Shown here in pieces: positions 31,271-38,447 of a DNA stretch of 64,000 nucleotides. A model generated the notes under the pieces. It searched no databases. It was not told where the DNA came from and worked only from the letters and a program-made list of their open reading frames with translations. Within the stretch, counting starts at the first letter, position 1. Each line of letters opens with the position of its first letter. The translations under genes and the position numbers were made by a program. Source of the stretch: Arenibacter antarcticus (GTDB lineage Bacteria; Bacteroidota; Bacteroidia; Flavobacteriales; Flavobacteriaceae); contig NZ_CP166679.1 of the NCBI RefSeq assembly GCF_041320605.1, positions 3,892,001 through 3,956,000 of the forward strand. Direction: 5' to 3'.

Positions 31271-32224
31271 ATGTTGGTTTGGGGTTCATTTATTGGAATT
31301 ATTATTATTTTTTTAGCCCTAGATTTAGGGGTGTTCCATAAAAACGATCATGTTATAAAATCTAAGGAAGCAGGAATTTGGACCGCCATATGGATAACGG
31401 TGGCACTTAGTTTTAGTGGGGTAATATACTGGCTGTTCGATGCTGAAATTATAGCAAACCCTACAGGTTTAACGCCCAATAATGCCGTATTAAAATATAT
31501 TACAGGTTACTTAATTGAGCTATCCCTTAGCATAGACAATGTTTTTGTAATCGCCGTAATATTTTCTGCCTTTAAAATTCCGGCTATCTACCAGCATCGG
31601 GTATTGTTTTGGGGTATATTGGGTGCAATTGTTTTCCGGGCACTGATGATTATTTTTGGTGTGGCCCTAATCACAAAATTTGATTGGATAATCTATGTAT
31701 TTGGGGTTTTCCTTTTATATACCGCATTTAAAATGCTTCGGTCCCACGATAGTGAATTTGACCCAAAATCGTCCTTTATTTTTAAGCAGATAAAAAAAAT
31801 CTATCCTATTACCTCCAAAATTAATGGGCACGATTTTTTTATTAAGCGTATGGGAGTTACCGCGGCCACACCCTTATTTGTTGCCTTGGTCATTATTGAA
31901 TTAACCGATATCCTTTTTGCTTTGGATAGTATTCCAGCTATATTGGCTATTACTGCAGATCCATTTATTGTCTTCAGTTCAAATATCTTGGCCATTTTAG
32001 GACTGCGATCTATGTATTTCCTTATTTCTAGAATGTTACAGAAATTTAGGTTTATCAATTATAGTTTAGTGGTAATCTTGGCATTTGTAGGTTTAAAGAT
32101 GTTATTCTCCCATCATATAGAAATTGCTGAATGGGTTTCACTTACAGTGATATCCGTATCTTTGGGAGGGGGAATAGCTGCTTCTCTTTTAATTCCAGAG
32201 GCCAAAGAGGAGGAGAAACTTTAA
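31271..32224 (+). CDS. TerC family integral membrane protein
   Basis: A 317-residue inner-membrane protein with about nine helices. LIELSLSIDNVFVIAVIF and ELTDILFALDSIPAILAIT are the two acidic TerC signature helices that may bind metal. Members are linked to tellurite resistance, manganese export (Alx/MeeF relatives) and export of metals to secreted enzymes. No other ter gene is present. The start at 31271 follows a good promoter by 21 bases. Its stop codon is directly adjacent to the stop of the convergent acyl carrier protein gene, with no terminator between. Confidence 0.93.
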   Translation: MLVWGSFIGIIIIFLALDLGVFHKNDHVIKSKEAGIWTAIWITVALSFSGVIYWLFDAEIIANPTGLTPNNAVLKYITGYLIELSLSIDNVFVIAVIFSAFKIPAIYQHRVLFWGILGAIVFRALMIIFGVALITKFDWIIYVFGVFLLYTAFKMLRSHDSEFDPKSSFIFKQIKKIYPITSKINGHDFFIKRMGVTAATPLFVALVIIELTDILFALDSIPAILAITADPFIVFSSNILAILGLRSMYFLISRMLQKFRFINYSLVVILAFVGLKMLFSHHIEIAEWVSLTVISVSLGGGIAASLLIPEAKEEEKL

Positions 32225-32482
32225 TTATTGTTTTTCCGCTAGTTTTTGGGCTACGATTCTTAAAGCATCCCTTACTGTTTGCATCTGGTCCATATCCTCG
32301 TTTTCCAATTTAATATCATAGGCATCCTCAACATCCAAAATAATATCCACCAAATTGGCAGAATTAATGTTGAGCTCTGATATGAAATTACTTTCCTCGG
32401 TAATATCCGATATAGATACATCCTCGGGTAAGTATAATTTAACGATGTCCCTTAAGGTGTCAAAATGTGATTTATTAATCAT
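32225..32482 (-). CDS. Acyl carrier protein of the type III PKS cluster
   Basis: An 85-residue acyl carrier protein. The phosphopantetheine-bearing Ser lies in LNINSANLVDIILDVE, where the usual DSL is NSA. The helix pattern and the acidic EDMDQMQTVRDALRIV segment match the family. The ATG at 32482 is two bases past the ketosynthase stop; the last gene of a six-gene minus-strand operon. It probably carries the acyl chain built or modified by the adjacent ketosynthase and dehydratase. Confidence 0.9.
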   Translation of the reverse strand: MINKSHFDTLRDIVKLYLPEDVSISDITEESNFISELNINSANLVDIILDVEDAYDIKLENEDMDQMQTVRDALRIVAQKLAEKQ

Positions 32483-32484
32483 TT

Positions 32485-33762
32485 TCAATTTGCTTTATAA
32501 GCCTTAAATATAACACAGGCATTTACATCACCAAAACCAAAGCTGGCTTTTGCAATAATATTTGGGGAATAGGAAAAAGTTTTTAACGGAATTTTGGTTT
32601 CATCAACTATTTCCAATATATCTGGATGGAGGTCCTTGCAATTTATGTTGCCAAAAACTTCCTTACACCTAAATTGCAAAATGCTCGCCACTGCCTCCAC
32701 ACTTCCCGCAGCAGCCAAACAATGACCAGTTAAACTCTTTGTGGTATTTATATAGGGAAAATCTTTACCTGATCGTTCAAGAGCGCGACTCCAGTTTTTA
32801 ATTTCTTCCGCGTCTTTGGAGGTTGCCGTAAGATGGCCGTTTATCACATCCACCTCCTTTTTAGCTATCCCCGCATCGGCAAGGGCGTCAACGATACAGC
32901 GTTGTACTGCTTCGCCATTGGGTGCGGTCATACTTCCTGTGCCTCGTTGTCCGCCACTGTTTACGGCCCCGCCCATTACTTCGGCATAAATACTGGCGCC
33001 TCTAGCCAAAGCACTGTCCATAGATTCCAGCACTACAGCTCCTGCCCCGCTCCCAGGCACAAAACCCGCTGCGGTGGCGCTCATTGGCCTACTGGCATGT
33101 TCAGGATTTTTATTGTATTGACTGGGAAGTATTCGCATAGCGTCAAAACCACCCCAGATATAAGGACCACTATCATTACAACTGCCTACCAACATTCGTT
33201 TTGCCTTTCCGGACCGGATGCGCTCCATTCCCATAATTATGGCCTCCGTTCCCGTAGCACAGGCCGATGAATTTGTGGTGATTTGGTTTCCCAATCCCAA
33301 TATCCCACTTAGATAGGCACTTATCCCACTTGCCATCGTCTGCATAACGGAATTACTCCCCAGTCTACGGGTATTTTTATTATCTATTAAGTAAATGGAC
33401 TCCCTAAATTTATCGACTCCTAAAATACCCGTGCCAAAGACAATCCCACTTTCCCAATCCGGATGTTCGGTACCCATAGGTTTTAATCCGGCATCTGCCC
33501 AAGCATCAGTCCCTGCCAGTACACCATATACCAAACCGCTGCTATTTAGACCCTTGCGCTGCAAGGGAGTAAAATAACGGGACATATGAAGGTTCGTGAC
33601 TTCCGGTTTTCCAGCAACTTGACACCCGAAGCCAAGATCAGATAGTTCTTGATGAAAACGAATACCGCATTCACCTTGCTGTAGGCTATGCGTGAAATTG
33701 GATAGTCCAACCCCATTGGGGGCACAAACACCTAGTCCAGTTACAACAACCCTATCACTCAT
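32485..33762 (-). CDS. Divergent beta-ketoacyl-ACP synthase
   Basis: A 425-residue thiolase-fold ketosynthase. The acylated Cys is in SACATG near residue 166. The first His is in GHLTATSKD near 308 (FabF has HGTGT or HGTST) and the second in GHCLAAAG near 346, so the Cys-His-His triad is complete with an altered first His loop. This HLTAT form is typical of ketosynthases in Bacteroidetes secondary pathways. It overlaps the dehydratase by eight bases and is followed by the ACP. It probably condenses the starter chain or extends it before the type III PKS. Confidence 0.92.
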   Translation of the reverse strand: MSDRVVVTGLGVCAPNGVGLSNFTHSLQQGECGIRFHQELSDLGFGCQVAGKPEVTNLHMSRYFTPLQRKGLNSSGLVYGVLAGTDAWADAGLKPMGTEHPDWESGIVFGTGILGVDKFRESIYLIDNKNTRRLGSNSVMQTMASGISAYLSGILGLGNQITTNSSACATGTEAIIMGMERIRSGKAKRMLVGSCNDSGPYIWGGFDAMRILPSQYNKNPEHASRPMSATAAGFVPGSGAGAVVLESMDSALARGASIYAEVMGGAVNSGGQRGTGSMTAPNGEAVQRCIVDALADAGIAKKEVDVINGHLTATSKDAEEIKNWSRALERSGKDFPYINTTKSLTGHCLAAAGSVEAVASILQFRCKEVFGNINCKDLHPDILEIVDETKIPLKTFSYSPNIIAKASFGFGDVNACVIFKAYKAN

Positions 33763-34204
33763 TTATCTCCATTTTTAGCATTCCGGACAAGGTTCCCTTG
33801 CAAACCAGTTTTCCTTGGGAATTATACATTTTCACTTCACATTTTAATTTTTGAAACCGGAAATAGATTTTGTCCGATTTTACTGTCACCGTTTCCAACG
33901 GATATACCGGTAAATAAAAATCCATTTGGGAACTACTCATCGCTATTTGTACATTTTCTAAACTTGCTCCCCCTTTCTCCAACAAAAAGATGCCCATGGC
34001 TACCAATCCAATCTGTGCGCAACACTCCGTTAGTATTACCCCTGGAGTAACCGGATGGTCCGTAAAATGGCCTTGATAAAAAAATTCGGTTTCCTTAAAC
34101 CTATAGGTTCCTTCCGCCATTTTTTCATCGACCGCTAGAAGCGAATCCACAAACAAAAATGGGGCGCTATAAGGGAGCCTAGCCAAAATTCTTTTTAATT
34201 CCAT
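33755..34204 (-). CDS. FabZ-like 3-hydroxyacyl-ACP dehydratase
   Basis: A 149-residue hotdog-fold dehydratase. The catalytic His is in YQGHFTDHPVTPGVI near residue 46 and the Glu in ILTECCAQ near 60; LPYSAPFLFVDSLL is the family's N-terminal motif. It is short, with no fused domain. It overlaps the ketosynthase by eight bases and belongs to the six-gene operon. Expected to remove water from 3-hydroxyacyl chains on the local ACP, giving an unsaturated intermediate. Confidence 0.88.
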   Translation of the reverse strand: MELKRILARLPYSAPFLFVDSLLAVDEKMAEGTYRFKETEFFYQGHFTDHPVTPGVILTECCAQIGLVAMGIFLLEKGGASLENVQIAMSSSQMDFYLPVYPLETVTVKSDKIYFRFQKLKCEVKMYNSQGKLVCKGTLSGMLKMEINE

Positions 34205-34295
34205 TTTCTATAACATATTTATATGTTGCTCTAGCCATTAAACTAAAAAAAAAGATGTTTTAAACCTCCTAATTAGAGAATGGGTTCTATGGGCA

Positions 34296-35351
34296 TTACC
34301 ATTCCAAAAGTATCCGCTGTGCCGAAAACCCAGGCCCAAAACTCAACATTAGCCCCTGATTGCCAGCGGGAATATCCTTATCCATAAATCGTTCTAAAAC
34401 ATAAAGGACCGTGGCGCTGCTCATATTTCCGTAAAGGCGCAGTGTTTCTCGGGTATCATCAATATTTTTCCCCATTTTACCAAATAACTGCTCCACGGTC
34501 TCCACAATTTTTCTACCTCCCGGATGAAAAATTAAATGGTCTACCCTTTCTATACTGCTTCCTAGTCCTTTTAGGAAAGGATGGATAATATCTGGAAAAT
34601 GGGCTGCAATGGTTTCTGGGACTGCAGGGTCCAATATCATTTTTAAACCAGAGTTGGTTAGGTCAAATCCCATCAAATGGGTGGCATCGGTAAAATGGTA
34701 CATCTCCTCGCCTATGATGCGTGGCCCTACCGCATTTTCCTCGGAAGATAGCAGTACGCAGGCGGCACCATCCCCAAAAATTGCGGCACTTACCATATTT
34801 GCCATGGAATAATCAGTAAGCTGAAATGTAGCGGTTGGACTTTCTACTGCTACTATGGCGGCTCTTTTTCCAGGGTTTGATTTTAGAAAATTACGAGCGT
34901 AGATCAAACCGGATATTCCGGCAGCGCAACCCATTTCCGTCACCGGTAGCCGAACCACATCTTTCCTAAGAGAAAGAGCATTTATAAGGTAGGCATCCAA
35001 AGAAGGAATCATAATACCGGTACAACTTACCGTAATAATAAAATCTATACTATTGGCCGCCCAATTACTCTTTTCCAAGGCTTTTTGCAACACCTTACTT
35101 CCTAAGCTTTTTACTTCCCGAACATATATTTTGTTCTTGTCTTCAAAAGTGGTCGCTGTAAACACCTCTTCCGGGCTCATTATACTATACCGCCGGTCTA
35201 CGGCTGCACCTTCGAATATTTTGATTATTTTTCGCTTAAAACGTAAGTCCTTACCCTCTAACCACCTTTCAACTAATGGCAAAATATCCTTGGTATCCCG
35301 ACTATAATGGGGTAATTCTTTGGTAACTGCTACTATCCTGGTTTCATTCAT
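34296..35351 (-). CDS. Type III polyketide synthase (chalcone/stilbene synthase superfamily)
   Basis: A 351-residue homodimeric-type polyketide synthase that condenses an acyl starter with malonyl-CoA and cyclises the product to a pyrone, resorcinol or phloroglucinol-like ring. The triad is visible: Cys in VTEMGCAAG near residue 141, His in IFHPGGRK near 275 and Asn in YGNMSSATVL near 308. LSFGPGFSAQ is the C-terminal signature GFGPG variant. It lies 13 bases after the methyltransferase gene. The presence of a local ACP and FabZ suggests the starter may be a long acyl chain; substrate preference cannot be read from sequence alone. Confidence 0.94.
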   Translation of the reverse strand: MNETRIVAVTKELPHYSRDTKDILPLVERWLEGKDLRFKRKIIKIFEGAAVDRRYSIMSPEEVFTATTFEDKNKIYVREVKSLGSKVLQKALEKSNWAANSIDFIITVSCTGIMIPSLDAYLINALSLRKDVVRLPVTEMGCAAGISGLIYARNFLKSNPGKRAAIVAVESPTATFQLTDYSMANMVSAAIFGDGAACVLLSSEENAVGPRIIGEEMYHFTDATHLMGFDLTNSGLKMILDPAVPETIAAHFPDIIHPFLKGLGSSIERVDHLIFHPGGRKIVETVEQLFGKMGKNIDDTRETLRLYGNMSSATVLYVLERFMDKDIPAGNQGLMLSFGPGFSAQRILLEW

Positions 35352-35364
35352 AGGTTGGTTGTTC

Positions 35365-36069
35365 TTATTTTAATCGTATTACCCAAAGATATCTAAAGGC
35401 CCATTTCCAACTAAGATCGTGACTTAGTTGTGGGAATTCTTGGGAAAACGCCCTAAGGTCCGACTTTGTAAAAGCGCTTTTTATAGAAACAAGGCCGTCG
35501 TGTTTTGCAATGCAGGTCTTTATAAAAAAAATACTATACATCTTAAAGAGATAGTAGGAAACCCTACTCCTTTGCAGGTCATTAATTACGATTCCCATGC
35601 GCGCAATAGGAAAGATCTGCCTCAGAAATTCAGGTATGTCCGCCGTTTTAAAATGATGCATAGTTAGAGAGCATAACAAAATATCACATTGTGTCTCTTT
35701 GGCATCCATAGTTAATATGTTTTGTTCCAAATACGAAATGTTTGGGTAGTTGGCAGATTTTTCTCTTGCTATTCCTAAAGCTTTACTGCTGAGGTCCAAA
35801 CCCACTAAATGAAGCTGTACCCCGCTTTTTTTAAAGTGGTTTGCTACCAATCTCAACATATGTCCGTCCCCGCAACCCAGATCCATTATGGTATAGCTGC
35901 TTTTGGGAGTATCCTGTATTAATTTTTTAATCGCTTTAATGGTGATGGAAAATCCATTTAACATTGCGTTGACCTTATTGATGTCTATAAATACCTTCTT
36001 TAATAATGTTACCTCCAAATTTGGATCGTCCATTATTTCCCGTTCCGTACAGCGATGTATAAAATTCAT
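35365..36069 (-). CDS. SAM-dependent class I methyltransferase of the PKS cluster
   Basis: A 234-residue methyltransferase. The SAM motif is TIMDLGCGDGHMLRLVANHF near residues 69-88, followed by VGLDLSSKALGIA and LCSLTMHHF (motifs II and III). It overlaps the FAD oxidoreductase stop by four bases (ATGA) and precedes the type III PKS by 13 bases. It probably methylates the aromatic ring or a hydroxyl of the PKS product. Whether it is an O- or C-methyltransferase is open. Confidence 0.88.
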   Translation of the reverse strand: MNFIHRCTEREIMDDPNLEVTLLKKVFIDINKVNAMLNGFSITIKAIKKLIQDTPKSSYTIMDLGCGDGHMLRLVANHFKKSGVQLHLVGLDLSSKALGIAREKSANYPNISYLEQNILTMDAKETQCDILLCSLTMHHFKTADIPEFLRQIFPIARMGIVINDLQRSRVSYYLFKMYSIFFIKTCIAKHDGLVSIKSAFTKSDLRAFSQEFPQLSHDLSWKWAFRYLWVIRLK

Positions 36070-37190
36070 ACCCTATTGAGTGGTTTTCCATGGGTGGTCT
36101 TGATCAACTTACGAACAAGATAAGGAGAATAGTTAATAAGCTGCATTCCTATATTGGATAATGATGGATTTAATAATACTGTTTGCAATTGACTCCCGAT
36201 CCATATACGTTTACCAAATGTGGAATACCATTGGAGTTCATACTCTTTTTCAAGTTGATGCCGATCATATTCTGCCTTCGAAAAATAATGATGAATTAGT
36301 TCCGCTGCCATTTTAGCACTATGTACAGCCATTGCCATCCCGTTACCGCAAAATGGATGAATGAGACCGGCAGTGTCTCCGCACATCAGTACATGTTGCT
36401 CTACTGCATTCTTATTGCTAAAAGAAATCTGTCCTATGGTCAGAGGTTTATTAAAGAGCATTTCCGAAGATTTCAAAAATGTCTTTAGAAATGGGTTTTT
36501 GGCCACTACGTTTTGATTAAAACATTCCACATTTTTCTCCTTTTTGAAACTTTCATAAGAAACCAAATAACAAAAATTGACCGTCCCATTCTCAGTTTTG
36601 GATAGTCCGCCATAGCCTCCCCTAAAATTGTGGAGTGCTACTAGATCATTGGGAAAGGAATCTAGTTTATAATGCGCTTTCACTCCAAGCCAAGGCGACT
36701 TTCTTTGGATAAACTTGCGACCCAGTTGCTTGTCCAGAGCGTCCCGTTTTCCATAAGCACCAACAACAAACTTAGAGCTGTACTGTTTTCCATCCATATC
36801 CTCGATGTAAAAAATGTCGTCTTTAAAACAAATGGAGTTTACATTTTTTTGAATTATGGTAACCCCCATGGCAATTGCCTGTTTATAAAGGGCATAATCC
36901 AAGGCATATCTACTGATGCCTAGTCCGCCCAAGGGCAGTTTAGCTTTTATGGATTTGCCGTTTTCCGTGCTTAAAAGGATTTGGCTAATTTGGGTGTTTT
37001 TGGGTAGAAATACACCCAAACTATCAAGATATGGTACAATTTCATTGGAAACATATTCCCCACAAACTTTGTGATGTGGATATTGGATCTTTTCAAAAAC
37101 AGCGATGTTGTAATGTTTTTTTTTTAAATGAAGGGCAGCGGTTAATCCGGCCAGACCACCACCAACGATAATAACGTCAAATCTATCCAT
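36066..37190 (-). CDS. FAD-dependent oxidoreductase (geranylgeranyl reductase/hydroxylase type)
   Basis: A 374-residue flavoprotein. The dinucleotide fold DVIIVGGGLAGLTAALHL opens at residue 5; HHKVCGEYVS is the conserved Cys/Gly segment of the geranylgeranyl reductase-like group; LMCGDTAGLIHPFCGNGM is the second FAD motif. The family contains reductases and aromatic monooxygenases. It is the first gene of the PKS operon and probably oxidises the resorcinol product. The start at 37190 is chosen since the upstream ATG would place the OmpA terminator inside the coding region. The space before the start leaves little room for an independent promoter. Confidence 0.88.
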   Translation of the reverse strand: MDRFDVIIVGGGLAGLTAALHLKKKHYNIAVFEKIQYPHHKVCGEYVSNEIVPYLDSLGVFLPKNTQISQILLSTENGKSIKAKLPLGGLGISRYALDYALYKQAIAMGVTIIQKNVNSICFKDDIFYIEDMDGKQYSSKFVVGAYGKRDALDKQLGRKFIQRKSPWLGVKAHYKLDSFPNDLVALHNFRGGYGGLSKTENGTVNFCYLVSYESFKKEKNVECFNQNVVAKNPFLKTFLKSSEMLFNKPLTIGQISFSNKNAVEQHVLMCGDTAGLIHPFCGNGMAMAVHSAKMAAELIHHYFSKAEYDRHQLEKEYELQWYSTFGKRIWIGSQLQTVLLNPSLSNIGMQLINYSPYLVRKLIKTTHGKPLNRV

Positions 37191-37210: not shown

Positions 37211-37241
37211 AAACAAAAAACCCGACGAAAATCATCGGGTC
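37211..37241 (-). terminator. Intrinsic terminator after the OmpA gene
   Basis: On the minus strand CCCGATGA and TCGTCGGG pair with one mismatch around a short loop, followed by TTTTTTG. It lies between the OmpA stop and the start of the FAD oxidoreductase gene, only about 20 bases before that start. Confidence 0.75.
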
Positions 37242-37264
37242 CATAATAACAAATCTAATTATTG

Positions 37265-37966
37265 CTAGTTTGCATTTCTACGTGCTTCTTCTTTTAAAGC
37301 CTCATTGGCTATGATTGCCAACTCTACCCTTCGATTTTTGGCTTTCCCAGCAGATGTTGTATTATCTGCTTTTGGCTGAGATTCTCCGTACCATTGGGTG
37401 GTAAGTCTACCTCTAGAAATACCTTTAGTAACCAAATAATTGGTAACTGACTCTGCGCGCTGTCTAGACAAGTTTAAGTTATAATCAGCTGCACCAGCGC
37501 TATCTGTATGACCCTCAACTAGAATGTTACTATCTGGATATTCCTTTAATATACCAACTAACCTATCTAGGGTGGTTGCCGAAGTACCTTTAACTCCCGA
37601 TTTGTTGGTATCAAAATATACCCCAGCATCCTCGTTAAAAGTTACGTTTATACCTTCACCGACCCGGGTAACTTCTGCACCTGGAATTTCTTCCTCAATA
37701 CGTTCTGCTTGACGGTCCATTTTGTCACCAATGTATCCACCGGCTACGCCTCCAACGACTGCACCTATAATGGCACCCAAGGCGGTATTGTTACCCTTGC
37801 CTACATTATTGCCTAAGACGCCTCCAATTACAGCTCCACCAGCAGCACCGGTAGCAGCACCTCTTTGTTTGTGATTGGTGTTCTTAATTGCTTTACAACT
37901 ACTAATGGTTGCCATTAACATTAATACGGACAAACTACTTACAATTATTTTTTTCATCTTATTCAT
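37265..37966 (-). CDS. OmpA-family lipoprotein with glycine-zipper domain
   Basis: A 233-residue outer-membrane lipoprotein. A lipobox SSC is near residue 24, then a glycine-zipper (GAATGAAGGAVIGGVLGNNV, GAIIGAVVGGVAGGYIGDK) for membrane insertion, then an OmpA peptidoglycan-binding domain (LVEGHTDSAGAADYNLNLS, LSRQRAESV). It anchors the outer membrane to the wall. The ATG at 37966 overlaps the lipocalin stop; a second ATG at 37957 (MKKIIV) gives a more usual signal sequence. The lipocalin and OmpA genes form a two-gene unit. Confidence 0.92.
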   Translation of the reverse strand: MNKMKKIIVSSLSVLMLMATISSCKAIKNTNHKQRGAATGAAGGAVIGGVLGNNVGKGNNTALGAIIGAVVGGVAGGYIGDKMDRQAERIEEEIPGAEVTRVGEGINVTFNEDAGVYFDTNKSGVKGTSATTLDRLVGILKEYPDSNILVEGHTDSAGAADYNLNLSRQRAESVTNYLVTKGISRGRLTTQWYGESQPKADNTTSAGKAKNRRVELAIIANEALKEEARRNAN

Positions 37967-38447
37967 TTTTTATAAATTCATAAACTACGGTTACTGGAGA
38001 ACCATCGACCGTTACTTTTGACTGAAGTCTCATTTGAGTTTCTGTTAAGGAAGAAATGTCTAACCTATAGCCTACCCCTCCGGAAATATCCTTGTATTTA
38101 TCATCGATAAATTTAAATTGGAGCTGGTCGGTCATCCCTTCACGATTTACAACGGACCATCGGATAAAACGTTCCTGTTGACTACAGTCGCTGCTGTTGG
38201 CCAAAACATAACTTCCAGTACTGTTGTTCTTCCTAAAGAACCAATTACTGCCCTCAAAACAAGCGGCCGTCGCATCATTGAACAGTTCCGATTTAAATTT
38301 GCCCTCGCTACCAGTATAGGAAACAGAGTTCAACATCCAATAACCATCAATGGTGTTCCTATCCTGCTTAGCAGATTTGGAGACGGAACAGGAAGACAAC
38401 ATACCTACAGCCATTAATAGCAAAAAGAAAGACTTTTTTACATGCAT
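37959..38447 (-). CDS. Lipocalin-like lipoprotein
   Basis: A 162-residue exported protein with a lipoprotein signal (LSSCSV near residue 20) and a lipocalin-family core opening with GYWMLNSVSYTGSEGKF, ending VVYEFIKNE. Six to eight strands are predicted. Only the GxW motif is strongly conserved. It probably binds a small hydrophobic molecule in the envelope. Its stop overlaps the OmpA reading frame, so the two genes are cotranscribed. Confidence 0.8.
   Translation of the reverse strand: MHVKKSFFLLLMAVGMLSSCSVSKSAKQDRNTIDGYWMLNSVSYTGSEGKFKSELFNDATAACFEGSNWFFRKNNSTGSYVLANSSDCSQQERFIRWSVVNREGMTDQLQFKFIDDKYKDISGGVGYRLDISSLTETQMRLQSKVTVDGSPVTVVYEFIKNE

Follow-up and report, generated by a model that had tools for sequence, protein, structure and literature searches.

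A six-gene type III polyketide synthase operon with a candidate acyl-supply module in Arenibacter antarcticus

The hidABC operon of picocyanobacteria encodes a methyltransferase, an oxidoreductase and a type III polyketide synthase (PKS); its product, hierridin, is described as a methylated, hydroxylated alkylresorcinol (Costa et al. 2019, as cited in PMC8086630 and PMC10896814). The starter proposed for HidC is a C14 acyl chain bound to an acyl carrier protein (ACP) (PMC8086630). A three-gene operon is also described from planctomycetes (PMC10896814). Six planctomycete PKSs were expressed in a heterologous host. Alkylresorcinols were obtained with four of them, whose operons are complete or varied; the other two, both from outside such operons, gave no product. 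The authors propose CoA-activated long-chain starters for these enzymes and judge the methyltransferase of G. maris to be probably a C-methyltransferase. The commonest order of the trio is methyltransferase-oxidoreductase-PKS (PMC10896814); hidC-hidA-hidB is also known (PMC8086630), so the order is not strict. Type III PKS clusters in general make up 9% (PMC7440613) or 10.74% (PMC10734526) of Flavobacteriaceae clusters, and the passages of these two papers that deal with them give no product. Here we describe a six-gene operon of Arenibacter antarcticus in which a trio of this kind stands next to a beta-ketoacyl-ACP synthase (KS), a dehydratase (DH) and an ACP. It occupies positions 32225-37190 of the window, the 64,000-nucleotide stretch analysed here (RefSeq assembly GCF_041320605.1, contig NZ_CP166679.1, positions 3,892,001 to 3,956,000 of the forward strand). 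No description of the six-gene set or its product was found in the titles and abstracts of the best-ranked open-access matches.

All six open reading frames (ORFs) are on the minus strand. The first (36066-37190, 374 amino acids) encodes a flavin adenine dinucleotide (FAD)-dependent oxidoreductase with Pfam FAD_binding_3 and lycopene-cyclase-like matches; by its overall fold it belongs to the p-hydroxybenzoate hydroxylase (PHBH)-fold monooxygenases, and it is predicted to be a ring hydroxylase. The W.W.I motif is the mark of flavin-dependent halogenases. A halogenase was considered for this protein and rejected; its nearest folds are halogenases, but the motif is present in none of 84 homologues. 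The S-adenosylmethionine (SAM)-dependent methyltransferase (MT; 35365-36069, 234 amino acids) matches Pfam Methyltransf_25 at 61 bits (cut-off 27) and NCBIfam PRK06202 at 130.6 bits, under the cut-off of 243. The type III PKS (34296-35351, 351 amino acids) has the N- and C-terminal Chal_sti_synt domains and a Cys142-His276-Asn309 triad. It is followed by a 91-bp gap (34205-34295), which in many relatives is the place of a FabL-like enoyl-ACP reductase gene. The FabZ-like hot-dog DH (33755-34204, 149 amino acids) has His46 and Glu60; its FabA-like domain scores 47 bits (cut-off 23), and it reaches 55-62 bits with the NCBIfam FabZ models, under their cut-offs. The KS (32485-33762, 425 amino acids) has the N- and C-terminal ketoacyl-synt domains and, in Cys168-His310-His347, the Cys-His-His catalytic triad of FabF/FabB-type ketosynthases. 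The ACP (32225-32482, 85 amino acids) carries its phosphopantetheine Ser in an N-S-A motif and matches PP-binding at 26.9 bits (cut-off 20.8). A PHROGs search with the PKS and KS gave no match.

A preliminary description of this DNA had reported a six-gene, same-strand operon with a divergent ketosynthase, and both points are borne out. With ATG starts, the ORFs, which agree with their Pfam and NCBIfam assignments, show the reported spacing: a 4-bp overlap of the FAD and MT genes, gaps of 13 bp (MT/PKS) and 91 bp (PKS/DH), an 8-bp overlap (DH/KS) and a gap of 2 bp (KS/ACP). If an upstream in-frame TTG is taken as the ACP start, the last gap becomes a 4-bp overlap. The best NCBIfam model for the KS is fabF, at 266 bits versus a cut-off of 494; the FabF/FabB equivalog cut-offs are thus not reached, and identity to the compared ketosynthases of the host genome is at most 35%.

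The operon is moderately likely to make a phenolic (alkylresorcinol) or alkylpyrone lipid, with a private acyl-ACP feeding the PKS and the ring being methylated and hydroxylated afterwards. The dedicated KS, DH and ACP would assemble a fatty acyl chain, bound to the private ACP, with the help of a housekeeping ketoreductase; in this lineage, enoyl reduction would fall to a housekeeping enoyl reductase. The PKS would then take the ACP-bound chain as its starter, add malonyl units and close the ring, which may be a resorcinol or a pyrone. The last steps would be methylation of the ring by the SAM-dependent enzyme and its hydroxylation by the PHBH-type flavoprotein, as in the proposal for hierridins. 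Observed are the gene content and its conservation, the catalytic residues, the structural class, the purifying selection and a homologous cassette next to another resorcinol-forming system; we infer the housekeeping help, the acyl transfer from ACP to PKS, the chain length, the ring type and the sites of methylation and hydroxylation.

The gene set is conserved beyond what chance would give. Relatives were compared at 84 loci: the window itself, 80 named loci and three distant loci of Bacteroidota (L142-L144). The named loci are the top-ranked 80 of at least 568 confirmed relatives, so the sample favours genomes closely related to the window. FAD, MT and PKS genes are present in 84/84 loci, DH in 82/84, and KS and ACP in 79/84. 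Genes are missing only in L053, L084, L090, L099 and L118, in all of which the contig ends inside the cluster; all six genes occur wherever the contig continues. Catalytic residues are likewise invariant: C142, H276 and N309 of the PKS (84/84), C168, H310, K342 and H347 of the KS (79/79), H46 and E60 of the DH (82/82) and the phosphopantetheine Ser of the ACP (79/79). The PKS of Arenibacter certesii (L044) is 88% identical to that of the window. In three Arenibacter pairs, dN/dS is 0.04-0.18, although the window/L044 pair is near synonymous saturation and the methyltransferase ratio is undefined; where the ratio can be computed, these values indicate purifying selection on the operon genes.

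Two draws of genomes extend this picture. In a set of 40 (the window's own genome and 39 relatives), the PKS clade (at least 74% identity) is found in 20: the host itself, 17/17 other genomes of the genus, G018 and G024. MT, PKS, DH and KS stand together in all 11 same-genus loci inspected (L004-L014, from the 17 genomes). In a draw of 395 genomes over Bacteroidota, the PKS clade occurs at 67-100% identity in 33, namely the host, 29/40 genomes of the same family and three further members of the class. Identity then drops to 35-37% for the PKSs that rank next; the clade is therefore sharply bounded. The KS clade (at least 60% identity) occurs in exactly the same 33 genomes, and five further genomes have a KS at 46-51% identity.

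Some observations weigh against a lipid built from a private acyl-ACP. Firstly, the best NCBIfam model for the PKS is DpgA (172.7 bits), although the equivalog cut-off of 425 is not reached. Secondly, 17 loci of more distant Bacteroidota PKSs (29-35% identity) were compared, and none of the stretches fetched has a DH, KS or ACP match; a type III PKS therefore does not need the module. Two of these loci, L157 and L158, have the FAD-MT-PKS trio, and a third, L156, has MT-PKS. Thirdly, the module also occurs without any PKS, in the settings of L168-L170 considered below.

DpgA uses only malonyl-CoA. A DpgA-like PKS would make a small aromatic acid or thioester, and the KS, DH and ACP would extend this aromatic starter to an aryl-alkanoyl or aryl-polyene chain. 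A KS, DH and ACP without a cognate ketoreductase do resemble parts of aryl polyene clusters. The DpgA score is nevertheless far under the cut-off, and neither the six genes nor three scanned neighbours include a match to DpgB, DpgC or DpgD (Pfam, NCBIfam). Among solved structures, those nearest to the PKS are Pks11, an alkylpyrone enzyme, and CylI, an alkylresorcinol enzyme (about 28% identity), and the enoyl reductase found in many relatives speaks for a saturated chain rather than a polyene. A DpgA-type route is improbable. DarB (NCBIfam NF053539) has no match among nine window proteins scanned.

It is also possible, if rather unlikely, that the PKS uses a fatty acyl-CoA, or acyl-ACP from the general fatty acid synthase, and that KS, DH and ACP make a second acyl part, for example one later joined to the ring or one used in a separate lipid. 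The planctomycete operons function without a module and are proposed to use CoA starters (PMC10896814); the module-free trios of L157 and L158 show the same gene content within the phylum, and L168-L170 show a module without PKS beside genes for GT2-like and GNAT-like proteins. Conversely, the six operon proteins include no acyltransferase (Pfam, NCBIfam), and the KS and PKS clades coincide across the 395 genomes. In addition, the module stands beside a DarB gene in two genomes. In dialkylresorcinol (DAR) chemistry, acyl parts become the resorcinol side chains and the ring is closed by DarB-type chemistry.

The preferred reading, a phenolic or pyrone lipid fed from the private ACP, agrees with much of the preliminary description. 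Absence of conserved synteny in relatives had been named there as one result that would refute the proposal; synteny was looked for in the 84 loci and it held. The private acyl supply is well supported as a genetic unit, since KS, DH and ACP accompany the PKS wherever this can be checked, keep their catalytic residues, are under purifying selection in Arenibacter where dN/dS can be computed and have counterparts beside dialkylresorcinol genes in two genomes; the step in which the PKS takes its chain from the ACP is one that we infer. The methylated, oxidised phenolic lipid or pyrone suggested as product is plausible with Pks11 and CylI as nearest structures.

The KS differs from the usual type in two motifs. 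GHLT replaces the HGT- or HAT-type motif in 76 of 79 PKS-linked KSs (GHIT in two, GHMT in one), and GFGD replaces GFGG in 79/79. Five KSs in other settings all have GHLT; four have GFGD and one AFGD. Both motifs are absent from four host KSs and one Novosphingobium KS. On these motifs, the KS is assigned to a distinct subfamily marked by GHLT and GFGD, with a signature that is not strict.

The five genomes whose KS is 46-51% identical show it in other settings (L166-L170), two of them next to a second resorcinol-forming system. At L166 and L167, a homologous cassette of enoyl reductase (ER), DH, KS, ACP and 4'-phosphopantetheinyl transferase superfamily (PPTase) genes lies divergently beside a DarB gene (614.7 and 634.8 bits; NCBIfam cut-off 550). 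At L167, the locus tested, DarG and DarH also pass. The gene that precedes DarB matches no family and is DarA-like only by place and by eye. The host itself has a separate dialkylresorcinol/flexirubin-type cluster (L165, G000:C1:224000-243500), in which DarB scores 665 bits against the cut-off of 550 and which includes several ketosynthase, ACP and ABC-transporter-like genes, partly assigned by eye. At L168, L169 and L170, DH-KS-ACP (with ER at L170) adjoins genes for a GNAT-like protein and a GT2 glycosyltransferase-like protein; family searches were made for the pair at L170 and for the GNAT-like protein at L168. The stretches of these three loci hold no PKS match, and they possibly represent an unknown acylated glycolipid pathway.

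Because a homologous cassette adjoins a DarB gene in two other genomes, the KS-DH-ACP set looks like a portable acyl-supply module. The adjacency of one acyl module to two unrelated resorcinol-ring routes is the strongest hint to its role.

Many relatives have further genes in the operon. Of the 80 named loci, 70 have a short-chain dehydrogenase/reductase (SDR) gene inserted after PKS and before DH; in L118 it is cut by the contig end. A catalytic Y-x6-K spacing is typical of enoyl reductases in this family and Y-x3-K of ketoreductases. The gene was tried as a ketoreductase and refiled as an enoyl reductase, Y-x3-K being found in 0/70 of the stretches tested and Y-x6-K in 70/70. In the two proteins scanned, the best NCBIfam model is FabL (162 and 153 bits, under the equivalog cut-off of 328), and a profile search gives FabL 3oic as the best PDB match (144.6 bits, E 4.1e-41, versus 100.3 bits for the next). 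The extra SDR is thus read as a probable enoyl-ACP reductase, a relative of FabL and not its equivalog.

The ER is not near-universal, as 70/80 might suggest; this count reflects the nearest-kin sample, and in the phylum draw only 12 of the 29 loci inspected from other genera (L015-L043) have it. It is present in 0/11 inspected loci of the genus (L004-L014). On a PKS tree of 84 rows, ER presence and absence require at least five changes, four of them forced by starred branches; this was a quick tree in which 35 of 81 inner branches are weak. Relics of the C-terminal part of the ER remain in L076 (30.8 bits; highest null score 21.9) and L100 (30.4 bits; null 21.2), and at least two of the absences are therefore losses. 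For the window gap, the top candidate scores 21.9 bits, where 20 plain shuffles reach 20.4 at most; it falls within the final bases of the PKS gene and was rejected. Candidate relics in L045, L046 and L074, 1-3 bits above their nulls and at or near the PKS end, are not claimed either.

Among the 75 named loci whose ACP is intact, 21 have a PPTase gene, which we take to be of the Sfp type, that abuts the ACP gene or overlaps it, as do L142-L144; the overlaps are 1-14 bases. It also follows the ACP in six of seven further fully read loci (L183-L188; not L189). The window operon has neither the ER nor the PPTase gene. Since many relatives add one or both, its six genes can be regarded as the invariant core of a larger set. 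Candidates for the housekeeping help are present in the host: a FabI-like reductase (L171; 120 bits to a FabI model, under its cut-off of 337, with Y-x6-K by eye) and a FabG-like SDR at L124 (by eye). No protein of the host closely matches the missing ER; the best is 34% identical over part of the protein and 26% over its full length. Two variants were seen elsewhere. At L183:5441-5818, an ORF of 125 amino acids, GIY-YIG-like by eye only, lies between DH and KS, whose spacing is wider than usual. At L120:9918-10436 (Aquimarina algicola), an extra lipoprotein-like ORF (by eye), with no Pfam or NCBIfam match, lies between ER and DH.

The lack in Arenibacter of the ER and PPTase of many relatives would also fit a decaying cluster in which spare fatty-acid genes lie beside a type III PKS without a dedicated product. 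The KS gene of one sampled relative (G122) has a stop codon; the match at G122:C2:180178-181440 contains a single in-frame TAA, reflecting a broken gene or a sequencing error. Decay is very unlikely for the window operon: within Arenibacter dN/dS does not exceed 0.18 where it is defined, active sites are intact, the PKS clade is kept in all 17 other same-genus genomes of the set, and MT, PKS, DH and KS remain together in the 11 inspected.

Taken together, we tentatively propose, as somewhat less than an even chance, that a cassette of optional ER, DH, new-subfamily KS, ACP and optional PPTase serves at least two unrelated resorcinol chemistries in Bacteroidota, those of type III PKS and DarB. 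In the window, it would form a dedicated branch of fatty acid synthesis with a type III PKS outlet, leading to an undescribed methylated, hydroxylated phenolic lipid made by many Flavobacteriaceae. If the preferred reading of the operon holds, it predicts phenolic or quinone lipids, as a class open to testing, for much of the family (29/40 same-family genomes), and it would be a clean case of a type II acyl module dedicated to feeding a type III PKS. With the cassette and the KS motifs, such pathways can be sought by sequence, and genera that naturally have or lack the ER offer a ready comparison of chain saturation.

Directly upstream of the operon are genes for an OmpA-family lipoprotein and a lipocalin-like protein (window 37265-38447). 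Of 75 named loci that could be tested, 69 have this pair in the adjacent position. A terminator-like hairpin on the minus strand (37218-37242; an 11-pair stem and a T run) lies between the lipoprotein gene and the FAD gene. It is the strongest of eight terminator-like sites in the region (fold z -3.75, with 0/200 shuffles as good); the whole scan for promoters and terminators is not above chance (24 versus 20.7 and 8 versus 6.6 in shuffles). The pair was considered and rejected as part of the operon, with this strong hairpin between and the pair not found in L142-L144; this suggests a separate transcript. At the other end, the ACP stop and the stop of a convergent TerC-family gene abut at 32224/32225 with zero bases between. 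TerC is convergent within 2.5 kb in 35/70 testable named loci.

Among known systems, aryl polyene clusters have paired ketosynthases and a set of ketoreductase and dehydratase; the window operon has a single KS, DH and ACP and lacks a ketoreductase. DAR/flexirubin clusters share the homologous cassette in L166 and L167, and there the ring is formed by DarB, not by a type III PKS. Plasmid pLA3 of Novosphingobium pentaromativorans (L181:1061-6044) encodes an ACP, a KS, a type III PKS and an FAD monooxygenase in consecutive genes; a DUF2147 gene precedes them, and a divergent methyltransferase gene is nearby. As in the window, the PKS has its own ACP and KS, a flavin monooxygenase and a nearby methyltransferase gene. 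Because its KS and PKS are each only 27% identical to those of the window and the KS lacks GHLT and GFGD, the plasmid genes look as if they had been assembled independently, with a type III PKS again joined to a KS and an ACP of its own.

The srsABC operon of Streptomyces encodes a type III PKS, a methyltransferase and a flavoprotein and leads to methylated phenolic lipids and quinones; to our knowledge, it has no private KS, DH or ACP. The preliminary description had likened the trio to srsABC; the resemblance is one of described gene content, and the documented parallels are the hierridin and planctomycete operons (PMC8086630, PMC10896814). The ebo/UbiA-297 operon (PMC9235831), also considered, is a different operon. 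In the cylindrocyclophane system, the chain of CylI is described as extended by type I PKSs (PMC8086630), unlike the chain proposed here. By gene content, the window shares with the hierridin operon a Cys-His-Asn PKS with adjacent MT and FAD oxidoreductase genes, and the planctomycete operon has the same trio. The window differs from both in its order, oxidoreductase-MT-PKS in place of MT-oxidoreductase-PKS. It also differs in its module: the hid operon descriptions in PMC8086630 and PMC10896814 include no KS, DH or ACP, and the planctomycete operon as described in PMC10896814 has no acyl module. On this comparison, the trio resembles that of the hierridin and planctomycete operons, and the added module sets the window operon apart as a new variant.

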